A stretch of DNA of 38,936 nucleotides from a virus: IMG/VR virus record IMGVR_UViG_3300048839_000281, positions 1 to 38,936 of that record. One strand, 5' to 3'. Each line of letters begins with the position of its first letter. The stretch's first letter is position 1. The notes below the pieces were generated by a model. The model saw only the letters and a program-made list of their open reading frames with translations, made no database searches and was not told where the DNA came from. Made by a program: the position numbers and the translations under genes. Of this stretch, positions 5,636 to 35,077 are shown in pieces.

Positions 5636-6002
5636 AACCTTTTTCATTCCTGGGAATGTCCCAAGTTCAAAGAACGGCAAGCAGTGGACTGGCCGATATT
5701 TTGTGTACAGCAAAGCCACCAAGAGGTACCAAAAAGAGTCTCGGGACTGGTACTTGGTATATAGAGACGAGTTCAAAGAAATCATCAAAGATCTTCCCAA
5801 ACCACTCGTTATTGAGTTTGAGTTTGTGCGTGACTCGCACCGAAAGTTTGACTATGTGAACCCGCTCCAAACGGTGCAGGACTTTATGGTTGAGGCTGGG
5901 TGGATGGAAGATGACAATGCAGACGAACTGATCCCCAGGTTCCTGCCCTACCGATACGATAAAGAGAAACCTGGGGTGTATATTTCAGTTGTTACTTCGT
6001 AG
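5625..6002 (+). CDS. rusA: RusA-like Holliday junction resolvase
   Basis: A 125-aa protein that matches RusA in length and order. The N-terminus (FFIPGNVPSSKN) is the usual family opening, and the acidic site is D76 in RKFDYVNPLQTV, D86 in QDFM and D96-D97 in MEDDNAD. RusA cuts four-way junctions, here probably resolving replication and recombination intermediates before packaging. I chose the ATG at 5625 over an upstream TTG at 5616. It overlaps the previous gene by 11 bases, and its stop overlaps the convergent leftward gene by 11 bases. Confidence 0.88.
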   Translation: MTNKTFFIPGNVPSSKNGKQWTGRYFVYSKATKRYQKESRDWYLVYRDEFKEIIKDLPKPLVIEFEFVRDSHRKFDYVNPLQTVQDFMVEAGWMEDDNADELIPRFLPYRYDKEKPGVYISVVTS

Positions 6003-6496: not shown

Positions 6497-7210
6497 TTAG
6501 TACAGGCGTGTCCGCACTTTATTATTATGATTATAAATATCCTCGAGTACACGCAGATAATCTCGAGTGCTTTCGTAGGCTGGGATCTGTTTTGTGTAGG
6601 ACTCCAGCTTCTCTGCCATTCTTGACCAGTCAACATCGGGGTTGCGCAGACAGGTTCGCATTGCTCTGACAAACCCCCTGCTTCGGCGCACCTGTTGATT
6701 AGTGTGTTCGTGGAACATGTGGATTTTACCCACCACTTCATAGGCTTCGTCCATCGAGGTGACTTCAAAACCACCCGTCTTGAACTGAGCCATGTGTCCA
6801 CCTCCCCAATTTTCTTTTGAGAGTAGCCACACTGATATGCTCACTGGCAGATCGTGGTTCTCATAGAAACTTTTGAGGGTGATGTAATGCTCGTTGCCCT
6901 GTGAAGCGTAGGACTCCGCATAATCTTTGAGTCCCCACTGTCGCTGGTGAGCGTTGAGTTGCTGAACGACCTTGATCGTTGCACCCTGCACCGTGACGTA
7001 GGCGACCTCTACACCCAAACTTTCGGCTGCTAAGAGTCGATGCTGACCATCAATCACCTCCATCTTTTCATTGACCAAAATGGGGTTGTAGGGGAGTAGG
7101 TTTTGCTGCGCAATACTGGCAGCTAATTGTTTGACGTGGTTATCACTCACCTGACGGTTGCCCGTTATGGTTTTGAAAACCCGATAGTCCTTGGTACTGT
7201 TTATTTTCAT
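6497..7210 (-). CDS. ParB/Srx-fold nuclease-like protein
   Basis: A 237-aa protein with the ParB N-terminal core: SIAQQNLLPYNPILVNEKME followed by VIDGQHRLLAAESLGV (residues 52-67), where DGQHR is the family signature. In phages this fold appears in ParB-like nucleases, partition-like proteins and regulators of DNA modification. No clear ParB helix-turn-helix is visible, and the C-terminal half (from about 100) is unlike partition ParB proteins. The ribosome binding site is weak (AGAAAGAAAA). It sits in a replication-linked operon, but its role is open. Confidence 0.75.
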   Translation of the reverse strand: MKINSTKDYRVFKTITGNRQVSDNHVKQLAASIAQQNLLPYNPILVNEKMEVIDGQHRLLAAESLGVEVAYVTVQGATIKVVQQLNAHQRQWGLKDYAESYASQGNEHYITLKSFYENHDLPVSISVWLLSKENWGGGHMAQFKTGGFEVTSMDEAYEVVGKIHMFHEHTNQQVRRSRGFVRAMRTCLRNPDVDWSRMAEKLESYTKQIPAYESTRDYLRVLEDIYNHNNKVRTRLY

Positions 7211-10141: not shown

Positions 10142-10435
10142 TCATAAACAGAGCGCCTCGATAACGTCCTTGATAAACGGATCGTCCTCTGCTTGCTTTT
10201 TAGTTTCCAACACATCGGCAATTTCACCCATCGCTCGCCACACCTTCTTTTGGTCGGGATCATTTCGGTCTGCTCTAAATATCCACTCCAGCATGCGAGC
10301 CTTCTTAGCTTCCAATTCGGAGATCGAAAGCTCATACCAGTTGCGTGTCATTCCTGGTGATTGAGGCTCTGGTTTTGGTGGGTCTGGACGCTTCTGAGCG
10401 TTAGTTCTATATGCGTCCCACGGATGCTGGCTCAT
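10142..10435 (-). CDS. Small unknown helical protein
   Basis: A 97-aa protein with a Pro-rich N-terminus (RPDPPKPEPQSPGMTRNWYE) and a helical, charged body (ELSISELEAKKARMLEWIF). It overlaps the prim-pol stop by 4 bases (ATGA). Adjacency to the replicative enzyme suggests an accessory replication role; no family recognised. Confidence 0.6.
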   Translation of the reverse strand: MSQHPWDAYRTNAQKRPDPPKPEPQSPGMTRNWYELSISELEAKKARMLEWIFRADRNDPDQKKVWRAMGEIADVLETKKQAEDDPFIKDVIEALCL

Positions 10436-12027
10436 GCCATGTCTCCAAATAAATCTTTGGCCATGTCGGTAGTATCAAGGATGCCAGCGCCGTTCTCTTG
10501 GAACTCAATCACCACGCGCCCCTGCTTCCCCGCCTTGGTTTTTCTAATCAAAATACTTCCCATGTTGGTGTAGATCTCAGAACCCGAGTCGTCCTTCTCA
10601 TGCTCACGCACCACCAGTAGCACGTCAGTGGCATCTTGTTTGAACGCACCCGATCCTGCGATGTCATCTTCGTGGAGCTGGGCTTTTCTACTCTGACGCT
10701 TACGAATGTGAGCCACAACTACAATGGCGCTTTGTTTTGACTTGGCCAGTCCTGCGAGTTTTTTCATAGCATCCGCTTGCAAATCCAAGGTTTTACCAGC
10801 TTCCGTAGTGAAGTAGCCAATGTGGTCAACCACAATCAGGTCGTATCTGGGGAGTGCGTTCACCACTGCGATCAAGTCACTAAGTTTTCTAATCTGGTCT
10901 TTGCTGTATACCGAAATGTTTCCGTCAGCTTGGAGAATATCTTCTGTCTCCAACTCGGCAAATGTCTTGCCAGTCCTGATGCTAGCCAGATAGTCAACGA
11001 TAGTGTTCTCTGGTTCGAGTGCAAAGTACAATACTTTTTTTCCCTGCTGTGAGACGCGGTGCGCAAAGTTCAAACACATGGTTGTTTTTCCCACGTTGGT
11101 ATCGCCTGAGAAAGCAATAAGGTGGCCAGGGATGAAGCCCTTGATATGCTCATCAAGTTTTGAGTAGCCAGTGCTGGGTGCTATCTTTTCGAGCTTGCGC
11201 TCCTCCACACGTTTCATGGCCACTTCGCCCAAGCTCATTGGTTGCACCACCCCGTCACTTGGAGTGATACCGTTCCTGCGAGCGATCATCTCGGAGCGCT
11301 TGACACTATCGAATGTAGCTTTGAGTTCGTGTTCGGGAAGTGGGGGGTCGCACTTCTCAATGTTCCATTGCCTGAGACTTCCCCAAGCTGCCATGTCCCA
11401 CAACTCAATGTCGATTTTGCGAAGTAGAGAACCAGCAACCCGCGCTGCGGTATCGTTGCGTCCACCCTCCGACACTTTGGGGTAGGGGTTGTCTTGGCTG
11501 GGATCGAAGTCAAGGGGGGTGTGTTCTTTCTTTTTGAGCATTTCTGCCACGTTGGCTGGCAACTCACTCAAATACATTGGCGCAGTTCGGCGCTCAAACT
11601 CGTAGCTCTTTTCACCATAGGCGCTGGGTGGAAGTACCACATACCCACCATCACCACGGAAGTCTATTGGCATCCCGTCTACACGCACCGTATTTCTCAG
11701 TCCCTCAGTCCAACGATAGAAGTAATGACGACCCCCGCTAAACGCCGATTTCACCACAATTGGTGAGCTGAGACTCACTGGATCTTTCTCATCGTCCACG
11801 TCTATCACAACCACGTTTGAGATTTCACCAGTCACTAGGCCAATACCCATCGGGCGCATCTTGATCCACTCATCAACTTCTGCCTCAGTCGCCAGTCTGG
11901 ACTGGTAGGGTTTCCAAGCAACCATTGGTTTCTTCTCAATTTTGCCAGAGGCGTTTCGCTGAAAGGTGACGGGGAATACTGACCACCCCAGACCGATGTA
12001 CTCACGGAAAGTTTCTTTGGTAATCAT
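10432..12027 (-). CDS. Prim-pol primase/polymerase fused to RecA-type replicative helicase
   Basis: A 531-aa fusion. Residues 1-165 are an archaeo-eukaryotic type primase/polymerase (prim-pol): VVVIDVDDE with catalytic acids D76-D79, SGGRHYFYR (97-105) and DFRGDGGYVVLPPS (122-135). Residues 185-250 look like the linker or PriCT-like helical region (EGGRNDTAARVAG). From about 285 a DnaB/RecA-type motor follows: Walker A GDTNVGKTT (308-316), Walker B LIVVDHIG (397-404) and VVVAHIRKR (436-444). It should both prime and unwind the fork. GGAGGG lies 6 bases before the ATG, which overlaps the initiator stop. Confidence 0.88.
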   Translation of the reverse strand: MITKETFREYIGLGWSVFPVTFQRNASGKIEKKPMVAWKPYQSRLATEAEVDEWIKMRPMGIGLVTGEISNVVVIDVDDEKDPVSLSSPIVVKSAFSGGRHYFYRWTEGLRNTVRVDGMPIDFRGDGGYVVLPPSAYGEKSYEFERRTAPMYLSELPANVAEMLKKKEHTPLDFDPSQDNPYPKVSEGGRNDTAARVAGSLLRKIDIELWDMAAWGSLRQWNIEKCDPPLPEHELKATFDSVKRSEMIARRNGITPSDGVVQPMSLGEVAMKRVEERKLEKIAPSTGYSKLDEHIKGFIPGHLIAFSGDTNVGKTTMCLNFAHRVSQQGKKVLYFALEPENTIVDYLASIRTGKTFAELETEDILQADGNISVYSKDQIRKLSDLIAVVNALPRYDLIVVDHIGYFTTEAGKTLDLQADAMKKLAGLAKSKQSAIVVVAHIRKRQSRKAQLHEDDIAGSGAFKQDATDVLLVVREHEKDDSGSEIYTNMGSILIRKTKAGKQGRVVIEFQENGAGILDTTDMAKDLFGDMA

Positions 12028-12716
12028 TGGTTGCCCTCCTTCAACGCATCACGGAACCGCAACACTTGGGGATCGTCAGTCTCAAAATTAAGAAGCTGAC
12101 CAATTACATCGAGGTCAGCTCCCTTTGAGTCCGTTCGTTTGAAGAGAAGATGTGGTGTGAGTTTGTCGCCCCAATACGGGTGCTTCTGGTGTGAGCCAAT
12201 GGCGACTTTGATTTCCTTCTCAGAGTACACACTCGTCCAGTAATCAAACGTCTCGCCACTCACAGCTTGTGATCGAAACTTTTTGCTGTAGCGTTTGTTC
12301 CACCATTCCAACAAAGACTCTTTCGTGAACCCATTTACTATAGGACGTTCCTGTGTATGTGTATTTTTTATTTTATTCTTGTTATTTATATGCCCCATCT
12401 GTGGGGAGGGGGTATCCCCCGCTGTGGGGAGGGGGGACGTAGATGAGGCTCGGATAATTCTCTCAGTTTTCCAGCGCCCACGCTCGTCCTGAGACTTCTT
12501 CGCTTCAACCTGAATGACTCCGAGTCGGGCAAGTTTGGACACAATGCGTGAAATACTTTTGGCAATGACTCCCACCTGCTCCGCAATGTGTTCATTCGTT
12601 GCGTGGCAGAAGCCATTCTTTTTTGTGAGGCCAAGGATAACGCCAGCCACATACTTGTCAGTGATCGTCAGATCTTTGCGTGAAGCAACTTCAATTGGTA
12701 TGTGGACATACATCAT
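12024..12716 (-). CDS. Winged-helix replication initiator-like protein with origin-like linker
   Basis: A 230-aa protein. Residues 1-75 form a winged helix: ITDKYVAGVILGL, then VGVIAKSISRIVSKLARLGV as the recognition-helix region. Residues 85-125 are a low-complexity linker (SPQMGHINNKNKIKNTHTQE) encoded by the AT- and G-rich repeats at 12378-12435. The C-terminal part (about 130-230) resembles DnaD/helicase-loader domains (FTKESLLEWWNKRYSK, WTSVYSEKEIKVAI). The layout is like lambda O, where the origin lies in the linker-coding part. It begins the leftward replication operon. AAGGA lies 7 bases before the ATG. Confidence 0.75.
   Translation of the reverse strand: MMYVHIPIEVASRKDLTITDKYVAGVILGLTKKNGFCHATNEHIAEQVGVIAKSISRIVSKLARLGVIQVEAKKSQDERGRWKTERIIRASSTSPLPTAGDTPSPQMGHINNKNKIKNTHTQERPIVNGFTKESLLEWWNKRYSKKFRSQAVSGETFDYWTSVYSEKEIKVAIGSHQKHPYWGDKLTPHLLFKRTDSKGADLDVIGQLLNFETDDPQVLRFRDALKEGNQ
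12378..12435. other. Origin-like element inside the initiator gene
   Basis: A perfect 14-base direct repeat, CTGTGGGGAGGGGG, lies at 12399-12412 and 12422-12435 (period 23), next to an AT-rich tract (about 12360-12390). A copy of the same 42-base block (12378-12419, about three mismatches) lies in inverted orientation at 24475-24517. Iterons plus an AT-rich tract in an initiator gene is the lambda-type origin layout. The G-runs could also form a quadruplex. Function inferred. Confidence 0.5.
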
Positions 12717-23649: not shown

Positions 23650-23651
23650 CT

Positions 23652-23744
23652 ATGAAAGGATCAACCACACAGGCACAACTCAAAACAATTCTAGCCGTGG
23701 CGCTCATGCTCATACTTGCAGCACTGATAACCGCCTCAGTCTAA
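23652..23744 (+). CDS. 30-aa membrane peptide
   Basis: The frame has a single hydrophobic segment (TILAVALMLILAALITASV) after a short polar start. It follows the previous stop by 2 bases, and its stop is 20 bases before the operon terminator. Length is at the limit for calling a gene. Confidence 0.5.
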   Translation: MKGSTTQAQLKTILAVALMLILAALITASV

Positions 23745-23763
23745 CAATCACACGGCAACATCT

Positions 23764-23788
23764 AAGCCCCCAAATCGGGGGCTTTTTT
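23764..23788 (+). terminator. Strong rho-independent terminator
   Basis: AAGCCCCC (23764-23771) / GGGGGCTT (23777-23784) with loop AAATC and a T-run to 23788. It closes the accessory operon. Confidence 0.9.
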
Positions 23789-24377
23789 GCGTCTATGGGA
23801 CTATGTAGTTATTGAGGTGTAAACGTGGCGAAATGGTGTCAATGATGGGCGATAATTGATAAGTGTGAGGCGGTCGGGGATTGTATCGCGGGGCGTGGGG
23901 GTTGTCTAGTGCAAGGTTCGGCAGTCAGGGGGATCGACTGCTAAATACATGGGTATTGGAGGGCGGGGGTCGGTAGTTGGCGTGAGTTAGCACTTACACG
24001 CACCCCCGCACCCCGTTTCTACCTCTGGTGCGTGGGGTTACGTCGCAAATGCAATATTGTGCGACATAAAACCCTCAGTACCTCAAGTTGGGGGTTGACT
24101 AAAACACCCCCCGCCCCCCAAATCAAAGCACCCCCCATACCCCTACATCACATTGAGAAGCACCCCCACCCCGTGCGGGGGTTGGGTAGGTGGGGGGCTG
24201 GACACGTGACCCTCAGTCAAAACTTTTTTGCTAATTCGTTTCACGCCTCAAATTACCGCGCAATTTTTTGTACTCGGCTATTTTTTTGTGTTCAATTTTT
24301 TTTAGAAAAAATTATATGAAAACCCGAAACACCCCCCCCAACCCCCAACCCTCGACATCAAGAACCGAGGAACATAT

Positions 24378-24433
24378 ATGTCCATCGGTCTACCTCTGAT
24401 CCGATCCTCATAAATGTCCCTCGGTCTACCTCT
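24378..24433. repeat. 20-base direct repeat in the noncoding region
   Basis: ATGTCC(A/C)TCGGTCTACCTCT occurs at 24378-24397 and 24414-24433, one mismatch, 36 bases apart. A shorter AACCCGAAACAC repeat lies around 24325 and 24438. No promoter or gene is linked to them. Confidence 0.75.
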
Positions 24434-24474
24434 AGTAAACCCGAAACACGCTGTATTACACGGGTGTACATGTA

Positions 24475-24530
24475 GGGGTATACCCCCCCCCCACAGATGA
24501 GGCATATAAATAACAAGTATAAATAACAAG
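24475..24530. repeat. Second copy of the origin-like block, with a tandem 13-mer
   Basis: 24475-24517 carries, in inverted orientation, the block at 12378-12419 (GGCATATAAATAACAAG, the CCCCACAGATG stretch and a GGGG-TAT-CCCC palindrome; about three mismatches). The 13-mer TATAAATAACAAG is then perfectly repeated at 24505-24517 and 24518-24530. It is noncoding here and coding at the first site. Confidence 0.7.
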
Positions 24531-24712
24531 TTACATACACACATAGGCAGTATCCTATAGTATTTTTTTTTAGACACACCCTTTGCGACCACCCCACCTC
24601 GTTGCTTTGCAGTATCGCTAATCAGCGTGAGTGATCCCCCGCATAGCCGACTTGCCCCTTTCGACTAAAACTGGTGTAGGCAGGGCAAGGCGCGAGTGGT
24701 AGCATTGGTGGT

Positions 24713-24817
24713 ATGGAAAACTTTTTTACCAATTTTCTGATCTTGACTGGTGCAGCCCTCGTCTGGGCGCTCATGTTCTGGCAGTTAGCGACTGCGACGG
24801 CGAGACTTGCGCTTTGA
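24713..24817 (+). CDS. 34-aa membrane peptide
   Basis: One hydrophobic segment (FLILTGAALVWALMFWQLAT). A candidate promoter TAGGCA, 17 bases, TAGCAT ends 7 bases before the ATG, like the other leaderless genes, but it is weak. The next leaderless promoter begins inside this frame. Could be a real small protein or a chance frame. Confidence 0.4.
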   Translation: MENFFTNFLILTGAALVWALMFWQLATATARLAL

Positions 24818-24835
24818 AAAAAAGTCATTCATAAT
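24807..24835 (+). promoter_or_regulatory. Leaderless promoter for the acidic gene
   Basis: TTGCGC (24807-24812), a 17-base spacer and CATAAT (24830-24835), with 6 bases before the ATG at 24842. Confidence 0.55.
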
Positions 24836-24841
24836 GCCGTT

Positions 24842-26932: not shown

Positions 26933-27295
26933 TCAATTGTCTGGTGATTGTAAACTCCGCTCGGAGTATTCGTATGTGGTGAGGTCGATCATCCAGAGGT
27001 AGAGTCTGTGTGGTAGAAACCACGGGCGGGGTTTGGCGACTCGCACTCCCACTTCGGGAGCGTAGACTTTGGCAGGTTGAGCGATGAAGGTACTGACCGT
27101 GACTCCCAGATCCCACTGTTCTTCTTTGGTCAACAAGCGATAGCGCTTCTTGATGATGTGTTCACCCATTGTGTGATTGCCACCAGACTCAGTGGTTTGC
27201 ACATGCCAAGCGTCACCAGTTTTTTGAAGGATGCGCAGGTACGTTCCCTTTCGGCGCTCGATCCAGACTTGACCCTTCTTGATTTTTTTTATCAT
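26933..27295 (-). CDS. Unknown basic protein next to the glycosyltransferase
   Basis: A 120-aa basic protein (KKIKKGQVWIERRKGTYLRI) with a beta-rich N-terminal part that resembles a small barrel, and a Trp/Tyr-rich middle (PWFLPHRLYLWMIDLTTYEY). It overlaps the glycosyltransferase stop by 4 bases (ATGA), so the two are co-translated. Role unknown; nucleic acid binding is possible. Confidence 0.6.
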   Translation of the reverse strand: MIKKIKKGQVWIERRKGTYLRILQKTGDAWHVQTTESGGNHTMGEHIIKKRYRLLTKEEQWDLGVTVSTFIAQPAKVYAPEVGVRVAKPRPWFLPHRLYLWMIDLTTYEYSERSLQSPDN

Positions 27296-28008
27296 TGCAT
27301 GACGGTCTGTTCATTTTTCAGCCCCTCATAGTATTTTTCTTTTTCTTCTTTGATCCAGCGAGTGAAGTCGGCCTTGGTTTTTGTGGAGTTCCCAACGTGG
27401 CCAAGCTCAATTCGATTGTGCGCCCACACTTCTATGCCCTGTTTTCGGGCTTCCAAACAGAACGCGATGTCCTCGCCCACCTCATCGTAGGGGAACGGCT
27501 TTTTGGTTAGGTTGAACTGCTCTGGCTTAGCATGAAAGAAGAATGGAGGCTCCATTTTTTTGAATACTTCCATGTCAATGAGCAAGAACCCTGTGCCGAT
27601 GCCTTCCACTTGGAACATGTTCACGTCATCGGGGACGTGGCTGGGGTTGGTAATTTCGTTTGGAAGGGTGGGGTGTTTGATTTTCAGCACGGGGAACGGG
27701 GTCATGCGTCCGTAGTAGATGCCACCGATGATGTCTTTCTTGGCTTCAAGCAGTGTTTCGATCCCGTCAGCGGGGAAGTTGATGTCTGAGTCGATGAACA
27801 TGAGGTGTGTGGCACCCACGTCCACCGCTTCATACACCGCACGGTTTCTCGCCATGTGGATGTAGGTCTGTCGCTGGATGTCAAAGGTAAATGGTATCCT
27901 GGTTTTCTGACTCCACATAATGAAGCTAGCAAAAGTCTCTGCTTTTATTTCACCTAGACATGGGATACTGATATGAAGTTTAATGGCTTTATTGTTTTTA
28001 GTCAGCAT
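27292..28008 (-). CDS. GT-A fold glycosyltransferase
   Basis: A 238-aa protein with a family 2-like GT-A layout: IHMARNRAVYEAVDVGATHL then FIDSD (71-75), where DSD (73-75) is the metal-binding DxD motif; GIYYGRMTPFPVLK and GTGFLLIDMEVF follow. It transfers a sugar from an activated donor, perhaps to the virion, DNA or host surface glycans. It is divergent from the terminase, only 20 bases away, so promoters for both must overlap neighbouring sequence. Confidence 0.85.
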   Translation of the reverse strand: MLTKNNKAIKLHISIPCLGEIKAETFASFIMWSQKTRIPFTFDIQRQTYIHMARNRAVYEAVDVGATHLMFIDSDINFPADGIETLLEAKKDIIGGIYYGRMTPFPVLKIKHPTLPNEITNPSHVPDDVNMFQVEGIGTGFLLIDMEVFKKMEPPFFFHAKPEQFNLTKKPFPYDEVGEDIAFCLEARKQGIEVWAHNRIELGHVGNSTKTKADFTRWIKEEKEKYYEGLKNEQTVMQ

Positions 28009-30652: not shown

Positions 30653-32812
30653 ATGAGCAAAGACATCCTTTCACTATACAAAGAGCGCATGAAACAGTCG
30701 ATGACACTGGCCGAACCCCACTGGCAGCGCTCGATTGATAACTACAAGCACTACTTTGGTCGGCTTGACGCTGGCACGAACGATGACTCTAATTACCCCT
30801 TCTACTCAAAGATGAGTTTGTCACTATCCTATGAGGTAGTTGAGACTGTGTTACCCCGACTTATTGGTAAAGATCCTGAGTTTAATTTTGTTGCTCAGGA
30901 AGCTGCCGATGTTAAGTATGAGGACTTGGCAAAGATCACAGTTGGTTCTCAATACGACAACCCCAAACTCGAACTACTCGGTGAGCCAATCTATCTAAAA
31001 CTCATGCGAATGGTGAAGGAATGTTTGATTACAGGTAACGCTGTTGGTCGTCCGATGTGGCGTAGACAAACCAGGCAGATTGCAAAATACATGGCCACGC
31101 TTGAACGCGCTGGTTTCAAAAACGAAAAAGATATTCAAAAAGTTATTCAGGCTGCACAGAAGCTCGGCGCAGAAGATGAGATCAAATACGGCAAGGAGTT
31201 TGCAGAAACCCCGTGGCTGGATGATTTCGATCTCACTCACCTTCCATTTTTCTTTTATTTTGGTGACTGGATTATGGTTGAGCCTGGACGGTTCCGCTAT
31301 CAGATTGAGCGTGAACTGATGACGATTGATGACCTCGAGGACGAAGCAAAACGCTTTGGTTATGACAACGTGGTAATGGATGAGATCCGTGGCAAGCATG
31401 CGACCAAAGACACCTACTTCAACCCAGCTGACGACTCCCCAATCTCCAAGAACTTCATGTGGGAATACTACAATTTGTTTGCTATCGAAGATCAAAGTGC
31501 GTTTGCCACTGATGACGAAAAAGTTCCACTGCTTCGCGTGGACAAAATGTGGGACGCTGATGGAAAAGTCCATGTGTTTGTTAACGAACAATGGGGACTA
31601 ACTGGTACTGGATCATCTGGTAAAGAAGGTTTGATTGCTAATGCAAAAGCCCAGGGCGGTATGCAGAAGGGCGAGCATAAAGAAGAAGGTATTGAAAATC
31701 CATACGACATCAAAAAACCACCATTCATCCACGTCCATGACGTTGTGATCCCTCACTCTTATTTCTCTCGCGGAGAGATTGACTCAATCAAAAAACTCGA
31801 AGATGGTGCGAATGACTTGATGAACATGCGCTTTGATAACTTGCTCCAGTCGATGCTCCAATACTGGCTCTGGAACCCAAAGATGATGAGCAATGCCAAT
31901 GATGAGTTCGTGCCAATTCCAAACACTACTACCGCAGTGAAAGATGTTGAGAAGGCTGTGCGAGTTATTTCTGGAAATGACGTGACGGCTAGTGCCTACA
32001 AAGAAGCAGATAACCTGGTGGCTTCGATCAAATCCATTGCTGGTTTGAACGACTACGCGCAGGGGGTTGAAGGTGGCACTGTCGCTGGTAGAACCTACGG
32101 CGGTATGCGCTTGGTTCAAGAAGTGGCCAATGCTCGATTTATTGTGAAGTCTCGATTGTTTGAAAAAGTTACGCTCAAAGCACTTGGATATTTCATGCTT
32201 GAGTTCTCACGACAGTTCATCTCTAAAGACCGTGTGCGCCGTGTTTCGGGCGAGATGGGTACTACAGTGGAGCATAAGATCAGTGCGGGCGATCTCAAGT
32301 CAATTGCGGGCTTTATGGATCTCAAAGTTGTACCTAACTCTTCAATGGTTATTGACCAACAGGCTGAGGCAATGCGACTCAATGGTGTGGCTGATCGGTT
32401 TGCTACCGAGAAGGGCGCGTTCAAAGACATTCCTGATGAAGTCTATGACAAGTTCCTACTCAAGTTCTTGCAAGCCAATGGTATCACTGACGCAATTTAT
32501 TGGGTACGCGCACGACAAGAAGCTCGTAAAGCTGCAAAAGCTAAGGGTGAAACAGTCGATCAAGGCACGGGCGGAACTGGCAAAGAACTCCTACAACAAG
32601 CAATGGGTGGTGCTATGCCACAACAACCTCCCCAAGTTGGAGGGATGCCAATGCAACCTCCCCAAGTTCCCGCACAGATGGGGGGATTGACACCAACCAT
32701 GCCGATGGGTAATACTCTTCCCATAGGTAATAGTGAAGTGCTACAATCTGACCAGATAGCTGTGCAGCCCAATCCGCTGGAGCAATTACTAAATGCACAA
32801 GCCGTCTCATAA
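30653..32812 (+). CDS. Portal protein
   Basis: A 719-aa protein following the terminase by 5 bases. The early segment YKERMKQSMTLAEPHWQRSI and the block MVKECLITGNAVGRPMWRRQ are typical of portal proteins of the large podovirus class, with a long helical C-terminal half. The end is Pro/Gln/Met-rich (PQQPPQVGGMPMQPPQV), a feature of unstructured portal tails. It forms the dodecameric ring for DNA entry and exit. A 15-base direct repeat (CAACCTCCCCAAGTT) encodes the repeated part of the tail. Confidence 0.85.
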   Translation: MSKDILSLYKERMKQSMTLAEPHWQRSIDNYKHYFGRLDAGTNDDSNYPFYSKMSLSLSYEVVETVLPRLIGKDPEFNFVAQEAADVKYEDLAKITVGSQYDNPKLELLGEPIYLKLMRMVKECLITGNAVGRPMWRRQTRQIAKYMATLERAGFKNEKDIQKVIQAAQKLGAEDEIKYGKEFAETPWLDDFDLTHLPFFFYFGDWIMVEPGRFRYQIERELMTIDDLEDEAKRFGYDNVVMDEIRGKHATKDTYFNPADDSPISKNFMWEYYNLFAIEDQSAFATDDEKVPLLRVDKMWDADGKVHVFVNEQWGLTGTGSSGKEGLIANAKAQGGMQKGEHKEEGIENPYDIKKPPFIHVHDVVIPHSYFSRGEIDSIKKLEDGANDLMNMRFDNLLQSMLQYWLWNPKMMSNANDEFVPIPNTTTAVKDVEKAVRVISGNDVTASAYKEADNLVASIKSIAGLNDYAQGVEGGTVAGRTYGGMRLVQEVANARFIVKSRLFEKVTLKALGYFMLEFSRQFISKDRVRRVSGEMGTTVEHKISAGDLKSIAGFMDLKVVPNSSMVIDQQAEAMRLNGVADRFATEKGAFKDIPDEVYDKFLLKFLQANGITDAIYWVRARQEARKAAKAKGETVDQGTGGTGKELLQQAMGGAMPQQPPQVGGMPMQPPQVPAQMGGLTPTMPMGNTLPIGNSEVLQSDQIAVQPNPLEQLLNAQAVS

Positions 32813-34992: not shown

Positions 34993-35064
34993 CGCGGGAT
35001 GGCAGAGAGGTCATGCGCTAAGCTCATAACTTAGACCACGTTGGTTCGACTCCAACTCCCGCAA
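34993..35064 (+). tRNA. Initiator-like tRNA-Met (CAT)
   Basis: A complete cloverleaf. Acceptor arms CGCGGGA / TCCCGCA pair at six of seven positions, leaving the 1-72 pair as C·A, which is the hallmark of bacterial initiator tRNA. U8, the D arm GCA/TGC and the loop CTCATAA (anticodon CAT) fit. The T arm GTTGG-TTCGACT-CCAAC is perfect. The anticodon stem CTAAG/CTTAG lacks the three G-C pairs of a typical initiator. The CCA end is not encoded. An elongator Met or lysidine-modified Ile tRNA cannot be excluded. Confidence 0.8.
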
Positions 35065-35077
35065 CAGTAGGTTTAGC

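Follow-up and report, generated by a model that had tools for sequence, protein, structure and literature searches.

In phage lambda the replication origin lies inside the initiator gene O, between the parts encoding the DNA-binding and C-terminal regions of the protein. Four iterons spaced 20-24 bp apart, each an inverted repeat in lambdoid phages, are followed in the direction of the gene by an A/T tract, and two iterons plus this tract are described as the minimal unwinding unit (PMC7466680). Phage SPP1 combines one initiator with two origins, oriL in gene 38 and the noncoding oriR, 12-13 kb apart; both contain direct repeats and an A/T-rich DUE, and binding of the initiator G38P to both has been reported (PMC6316719, PMC3485210). 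Forks are thought to stall at G38P bound to oriR (PMC6316719, PMC3485210), perhaps for the switch to concatemers (PMC6316719, PMC3485210, PMC5615212). P1 oriL, located in repL, is an A/T-rich in-gene origin that is sensitive to synonymous change (PMC9948254).

The window, meaning the whole stretch of DNA analysed (38,936 nt), is the IMG/VR virus record IMGVR_UViG_3300048839_000281, of environmental origin. Its ends are identical over 127 bp, so it was handled as a 38,809-bp circle. Judged by its terminase, portal, capsid and amidase genes, it is a tailed phage. We propose that this phage has a lambda-type origin inside its initiator gene and a second, noncoding initiator-dependent site, an arrangement resembling that of SPP1, and we favor this model as a whole with moderate confidence. 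The features discussed are collected in Table 1.

Table 1. Coordinates of the in-gene block, its noncoding twin and the surrounding genes in the window
Feature	Position	Strand	Remarks
Prim-Pol and DnaB-like helicase gene	10432..12027	-	Neighbor of initiator gene; Pfam PF09250 3.5e-20, PF03796 5.5e-20
Replication initiator gene, 230 aa, winged-helix N-terminus	12024..12716	-	PHROG 270/428/678 replication initiation, E 2.8e-12 to 2.4e-7
Part of initiator gene (nt 296-381) duplicated outside the gene	12336..12421	-	End is TCCTATAGTA (12336-12345)
A/T-rich tract, candidate unwinding element of in-gene origin	about 12348..12392	-	
Iteron 2, inverted repeat CTCCCCACAGATGGGGCATA	12389..12408	-	23 bp from iteron 1
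14-bp direct repeat CTGTGGGGAGGGGG, copy 1	12399..12412	+	Perfect, period 23
Iteron 1, imperfect inverted repeat CTCCCCACAGCGGGGGATA	12413..12431	-	
14-bp direct repeat CTGTGGGGAGGGGG, copy 2	12422..12435	+	Perfect, period 23
Largest intergenic gap, 1,192 bp	23650..24841	.	Contains twin and cumulative GC-skew minimum (24,671)
Noncoding twin of the block	24475..24562 (88 bp)	+	Opposite orientation to in-gene copy; reaches TCCTATAGTA at 24553-24562
Twin palindrome GGGGTATACCCC	24475..24486	+	Gene copy has GGGGGATACCCC there
Iteron-2-like box of the twin	24487..24506	+	2 mismatches in 20
A/T-rich tract of the twin	24503..24573	+	Tandem 13-mers TATAAATAACAAG (24505-24517, 24518-24530)

The original prediction described a perfect 14-base direct repeat with a period of 23 and an AT-rich tract beside it, and both were recovered by our analysis. 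A perfect repeat of at least 14 bp within 60 bp occurred in 0 of 300 dinucleotide shuffles of the initiator gene, the longest being 11, and the only further repeat of this kind in the window is at 32624. A period of 23 is not divisible by 3, which puts the two copies into different reading frames with different encoded residues (PLPTAG and PSPQMG), so the repeat is a property of the DNA and not of the protein. On the coding strand, the repeat units fall within two inverted repeats, TCCCC-ACAGC-GGGGGA and TCCCC-ACAGAT-GGGGC. The A/T tract holds the easiest-melting 30-bp window of the circle (12362-12391; 0 windows easier). This architecture shares with lambda the in-gene position, the inverted-repeat iterons at lambda-like spacing and the A/T tract that follows them in the direction of the gene; it differs in having two iterons instead of four and in the iteron sequence, with its CCCC-ACAG-GGGG arms. 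The likeness to P1 oriL concerns the A/T-rich in-gene origin and its sensitivity to synonymous change as published. Two DnaA boxes were found in the window, which is below the shuffle counts, and neither lies at the block or its twin. A promoter role of either copy is unsupported, with no consensus promoter at the 12.4-kb or the 24.5-kb copy.

The block corresponds to about residues 94-127 of the initiator. In a predicted model of low confidence (mean pLDDT 42, built without relatives), residues 91-131 are unstructured and follow a helix-helix-strand-strand unit, which would place the block between a winged-helix-like unit and the C-terminal part, in agreement with the proposed linker after a winged helix. 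Winged-helix/HTH matches in Pfam were below the cut-off. The 'loader-like' domain that had been proposed for the C-terminal part could not be confirmed, as Pfam gave no family match in that region at E<=1. A PDB sequence search returned nothing at E<=0.1 (best 0.88).

The initiator alignment drew 61 loci from viral contigs, and the 58 complete genes were divided into eight groups by shared 5-mers. Among these groups, which are not fully independent because L162 and L158 are closely similar in the compared stretch, the longest perfect in-gene repeat (within 80 bp) has a period of 21-24 or 69, lies at nt 267-378 and is found beside an A/T tract in six of the eight (L162, L118, L158, L161, L106 and L165), and in five (L162, L118, L158, L106 and L165) no other site of the locus melts as easily as the tract. 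The exceptions to the period pattern are L105 (13 bp, period 47) and L151 (9 bp, period 27). Inverted-repeat units were seen in several of the groups, in lambda and in G013, a relative found via its capsid protein, where palindromic units such as GTTCCACCCACAGGTGGAAC precede an A-rich tract, the site of G013 that melts most easily. G005, also found via the capsid protein, has a DnaD-like initiator with repeated AGCCACA units and then an A/T tract; the units failed to score as inverted repeats, and 28 windows melt more easily than the tract. A 26-bp repeat of G005 (865 / 23577) was rejected as an origin because it lies just before predicted gene starts.

Synonymous differences were analyzed in the largest group (47 loci entered, 46 complete genes, 28 distinct). 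Over codons 79-126 (nt 235-378), which contain the repeats and the A/T tract, they amounted to 0.000-0.006 among the 28 distinct genes, compared with 0.033-0.147 in 12-codon windows upstream (0.033-0.069 just before, codons 61-84) and 0.012-0.351 in 12-codon windows after codon 120. Suppression over the repeats and the A/T tract would be expected from a DNA element within the gene; this constraint was shown in one related group, the phage itself having no close relatives. Searches with the initiator, Prim-Pol and terminase in viral_contigs, and with the terminase in genome_contigs, gave none. Its nearest kin (L014-L019) are fragments, with values of 51-55% for the terminase in the five that hold it and 58-70% for the best capsid segment, and the initiator was not detected in the closest, G001 and G002, which are fragments as well. 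Among 16 records, the initiator search matched one (G013) and the twin search none. The DNA patterns of the element at first gave 0 matches in viral_contigs; the later matches L003 and L175-L177 were rejected as unrelated to the phage by tblastn. BLAST of both regions against phages and plasmids returned only short, mostly A/T-rich matches.

Because of the iteron inverted repeats, the layout shared within the family and the near-absence of synonymous change at this place, a lambda-type origin inside the initiator gene is likely from the sequence evidence, and the block is very probably an origin to which the initiator would bind. Linkers in this initiator family are rich in Asn, Lys and Pro, which would suit a block that is a mere low-complexity linker with biased codons; however, the repeat with its period of 23 does not keep the reading frame, relatives show suppressed synonymous change at this position, and a homologous copy is retained in DNA outside any gene, so we regard that explanation as very unlikely. 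The G-runs had been suggested to form a quadruplex. A four-run motif fits at 12403-12436 when loops of up to 15 are allowed, and a tighter motif exists on the minus strand in the region of the twin (24323-24351), but the initiator gene contains none at loops of 7 or 12, and the G-runs pair with C-runs as the arms of the iteron inverted repeats. Seven of the eight related groups lack an in-gene four-run motif at loops <=12 (only L161 has one), though most keep the repeat/A/T layout. A quadruplex role of the G-runs is therefore extremely unlikely. Dense C-runs at 24107-24351, in the gap of the twin, give quadruplex-type motifs on the minus strand at 24107-24143 and 24323-24351.

The noncoding twin was overlooked in the original prediction. 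Compared with the rest of the genome by BLAST, the in-gene block matches the twin over 69 nt at 87% (77.9 bits, E 1.7e-16), and alignment lengthens the match to TCCTATAGTA, covering nt 296-381 of the initiator gene. Dinucleotide shuffles of the block (n=200) gave at most 32.8 bits, and of the 352 tiles compared, each 110 nt long, none but the two copies scored above 33.7 bits, the value of the best unrelated tile. The twin lies about 12 kb from the in-gene block, in a gap of 1,192 bp where the second largest, according to our own gene calls in this compact genome, is 438 bp. It is the second easiest-melting 30-bp site of the genome and contains its easiest 70-bp window (start 24504). A single recognizable iteron is kept, compared with two in the gene, and the copies point divergently, with the A/T tract leftward at 12.4 kb and rightward at 24.5 kb. 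The twin strand does not fold better than shuffles, and no consensus promoter or terminator overlaps it. Further upstream, a 22-bp stretch is collinear (gene nt 262-283 and 24399-24420, 4 mismatches), with a score reached by 5 of 2000 shuffles and 2 of 340 other segments; this weaker match points to an originally longer duplication. The inverted pair was also considered as the ends of an invertible segment and rejected, since inversion would break the initiator gene. Just upstream of the twin, an imperfect 36-bp tandem repeat (24362-24433, 81%) is flanked by two copies of AAACCCGAAACAC (24320-24332, 24437-24449), perhaps additional binding sites.

A noncoding second site that shares the iteron box and the A/T tract is the trait that recalls SPP1, where an in-gene and a noncoding site with repeats and an A/T-rich DUE are likewise separated by 12-13 kb; the two phages are likened by published layout, and initiator binding is reported for SPP1 alone. 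We found no description of a twin of this kind beyond SPP1 in the open-licence literature. Additional origin copies in the cell block the replication of lambda (PMC4488673), so a second copy in the genome is unlikely to be indifferent. The off-gene copy test detected a twin in 0 of 13 comparator records (G017, G018, G019, G020, G013, G005, lambda, D2SVT, B1578, SE-1, Ld3, phi39:1 and Funu2; best 34.6 bits, 29.2 bits in lambda), which are not all independent, as the portal is identical in D2SVT and B1578 and one 69-residue query matches both G018 and G020 at 100%, and which include some contigs of uncertain completeness. The portals of 'Acinetobacter phage D2SVT' (L008, PQ554527) and Enterococcus phage B1578 (L009, PQ283533) are 100% identical, and both genomes appear to carry one gene set in opposite orders, which makes one of the two host labels doubtful.

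A GC-skew signal at 12.4 kb had been named as a check on the in-gene origin, but the raw cumulative curve has its minimum at 24,671 and its maximum at 5,913, 18.8 kb apart on the 38.8-kb circle. The twin is about 110 bp from this minimum, and no such signal is present at 12.4 kb. The range of the skew was matched by 30 of 1000 shuffles with 300-bp blocks and 38 of 1000 with 1-kb blocks. As the coding strand matters, a strand-corrected scan was performed on fourfold-degenerate sites using the leading-minus-lagging G difference; the best origin positions were 24.2-25.6 kb, with +0.078 at 24.5 kb and -0.021 at 12.4 kb, and gene-level permutation gave p 0.038 for the fixed site and 0.122 for any site. 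Without strand correction, the plain cumulative curve of fourfold sites mainly reflects gene direction (detrended minimum 23,577, maximum 13,534). The skew thus modestly favors the neighborhood of the twin without proving a start there. The lambda-like in-gene origin of the original prediction agrees with the architecture and with the relatives, whereas its expected skew did not appear.

By analogy with lambda, the winged-helix domain of the initiator would bind the two palindromic iterons 23 bp apart and melt the A/T tract next to them, and the melted tract would let the neighboring Prim-Pol/DnaB-like helicase load. The twin would serve as a second initiator-dependent site, as SPP1 oriR does beside oriL, where it might fire, stall forks or mark the switch to concatemers. 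We consider it probable that the twin functions as an initiator site in one way or another. That it is itself a start site has, in our estimate, slightly less than an even chance, because the skew support is modest and one iteron is recognizable.

The single iteron would also be expected if the in-gene block were the sole origin and the twin a relic, now without a role, of a gene fragment that was once copied. The collinear 22-bp stretch is what a decaying larger duplication would leave, and the twin is absent from the 13 comparators. However, no other 70-bp site of the genome melts as easily as the twin, and its A/T 13-mer is present twice. The twin is also close to the skew minimum and within the largest gap of an otherwise compact genome, so a relic appears unlikely. 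Alternatively, the twin may be bound by the initiator as a regulatory, packaging or fork-stalling site and not as a start. Its setting in a large noncoding region, with the terminase gene about 3.5 kb downstream, and the stalling proposed for SPP1 oriR would suit this role; the A/T tract retained besides the binding box, the strand-corrected skew fitting an origin near 24.5 kb and the lack of an overlapping consensus promoter or terminator speak against it, and we judge it improbable. A split replicon, in which one initiator serves two divergent copies of one origin and the noncoding twin is the dominant start, is quite doubtful; if true, forks moving mainly toward the A/T tracts would copy the halves of the circle outward, in the prevailing direction of transcription, and the 12-kb stretch between the origins would be copied last.

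In the preferred model, an in-gene origin together with a second initiator-dependent site, the initiator protein and its target are tied to one stretch of DNA, as is general for in-gene origins, and the off-gene copy shows how a noncoding origin could arise from an in-gene one. With a second copy, the roles of early theta start and later switch could be divided between two sites. This layout, if real, extends the two-origin plan of SPP1 to a phage with lambda-like palindromic iterons. The footprint of synonymous suppression in initiator genes offers a general, experiment-free route to in-gene origins.

Elsewhere in the genome, a ParB-like protein is encoded at 6497-7210 (PHROG 12305, 6.7e-31), with full-length relatives at 33% in Flavobacterium phages lillamy and morran. 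The gene at 27292-28008 has two adjacent relatives in G001 (L095, 2974-4764), 44% and 33% identical. A tRNA-Met (CAT) is located at 34993-35065, in a 395-bp gap immediately upstream of the capsid gene.
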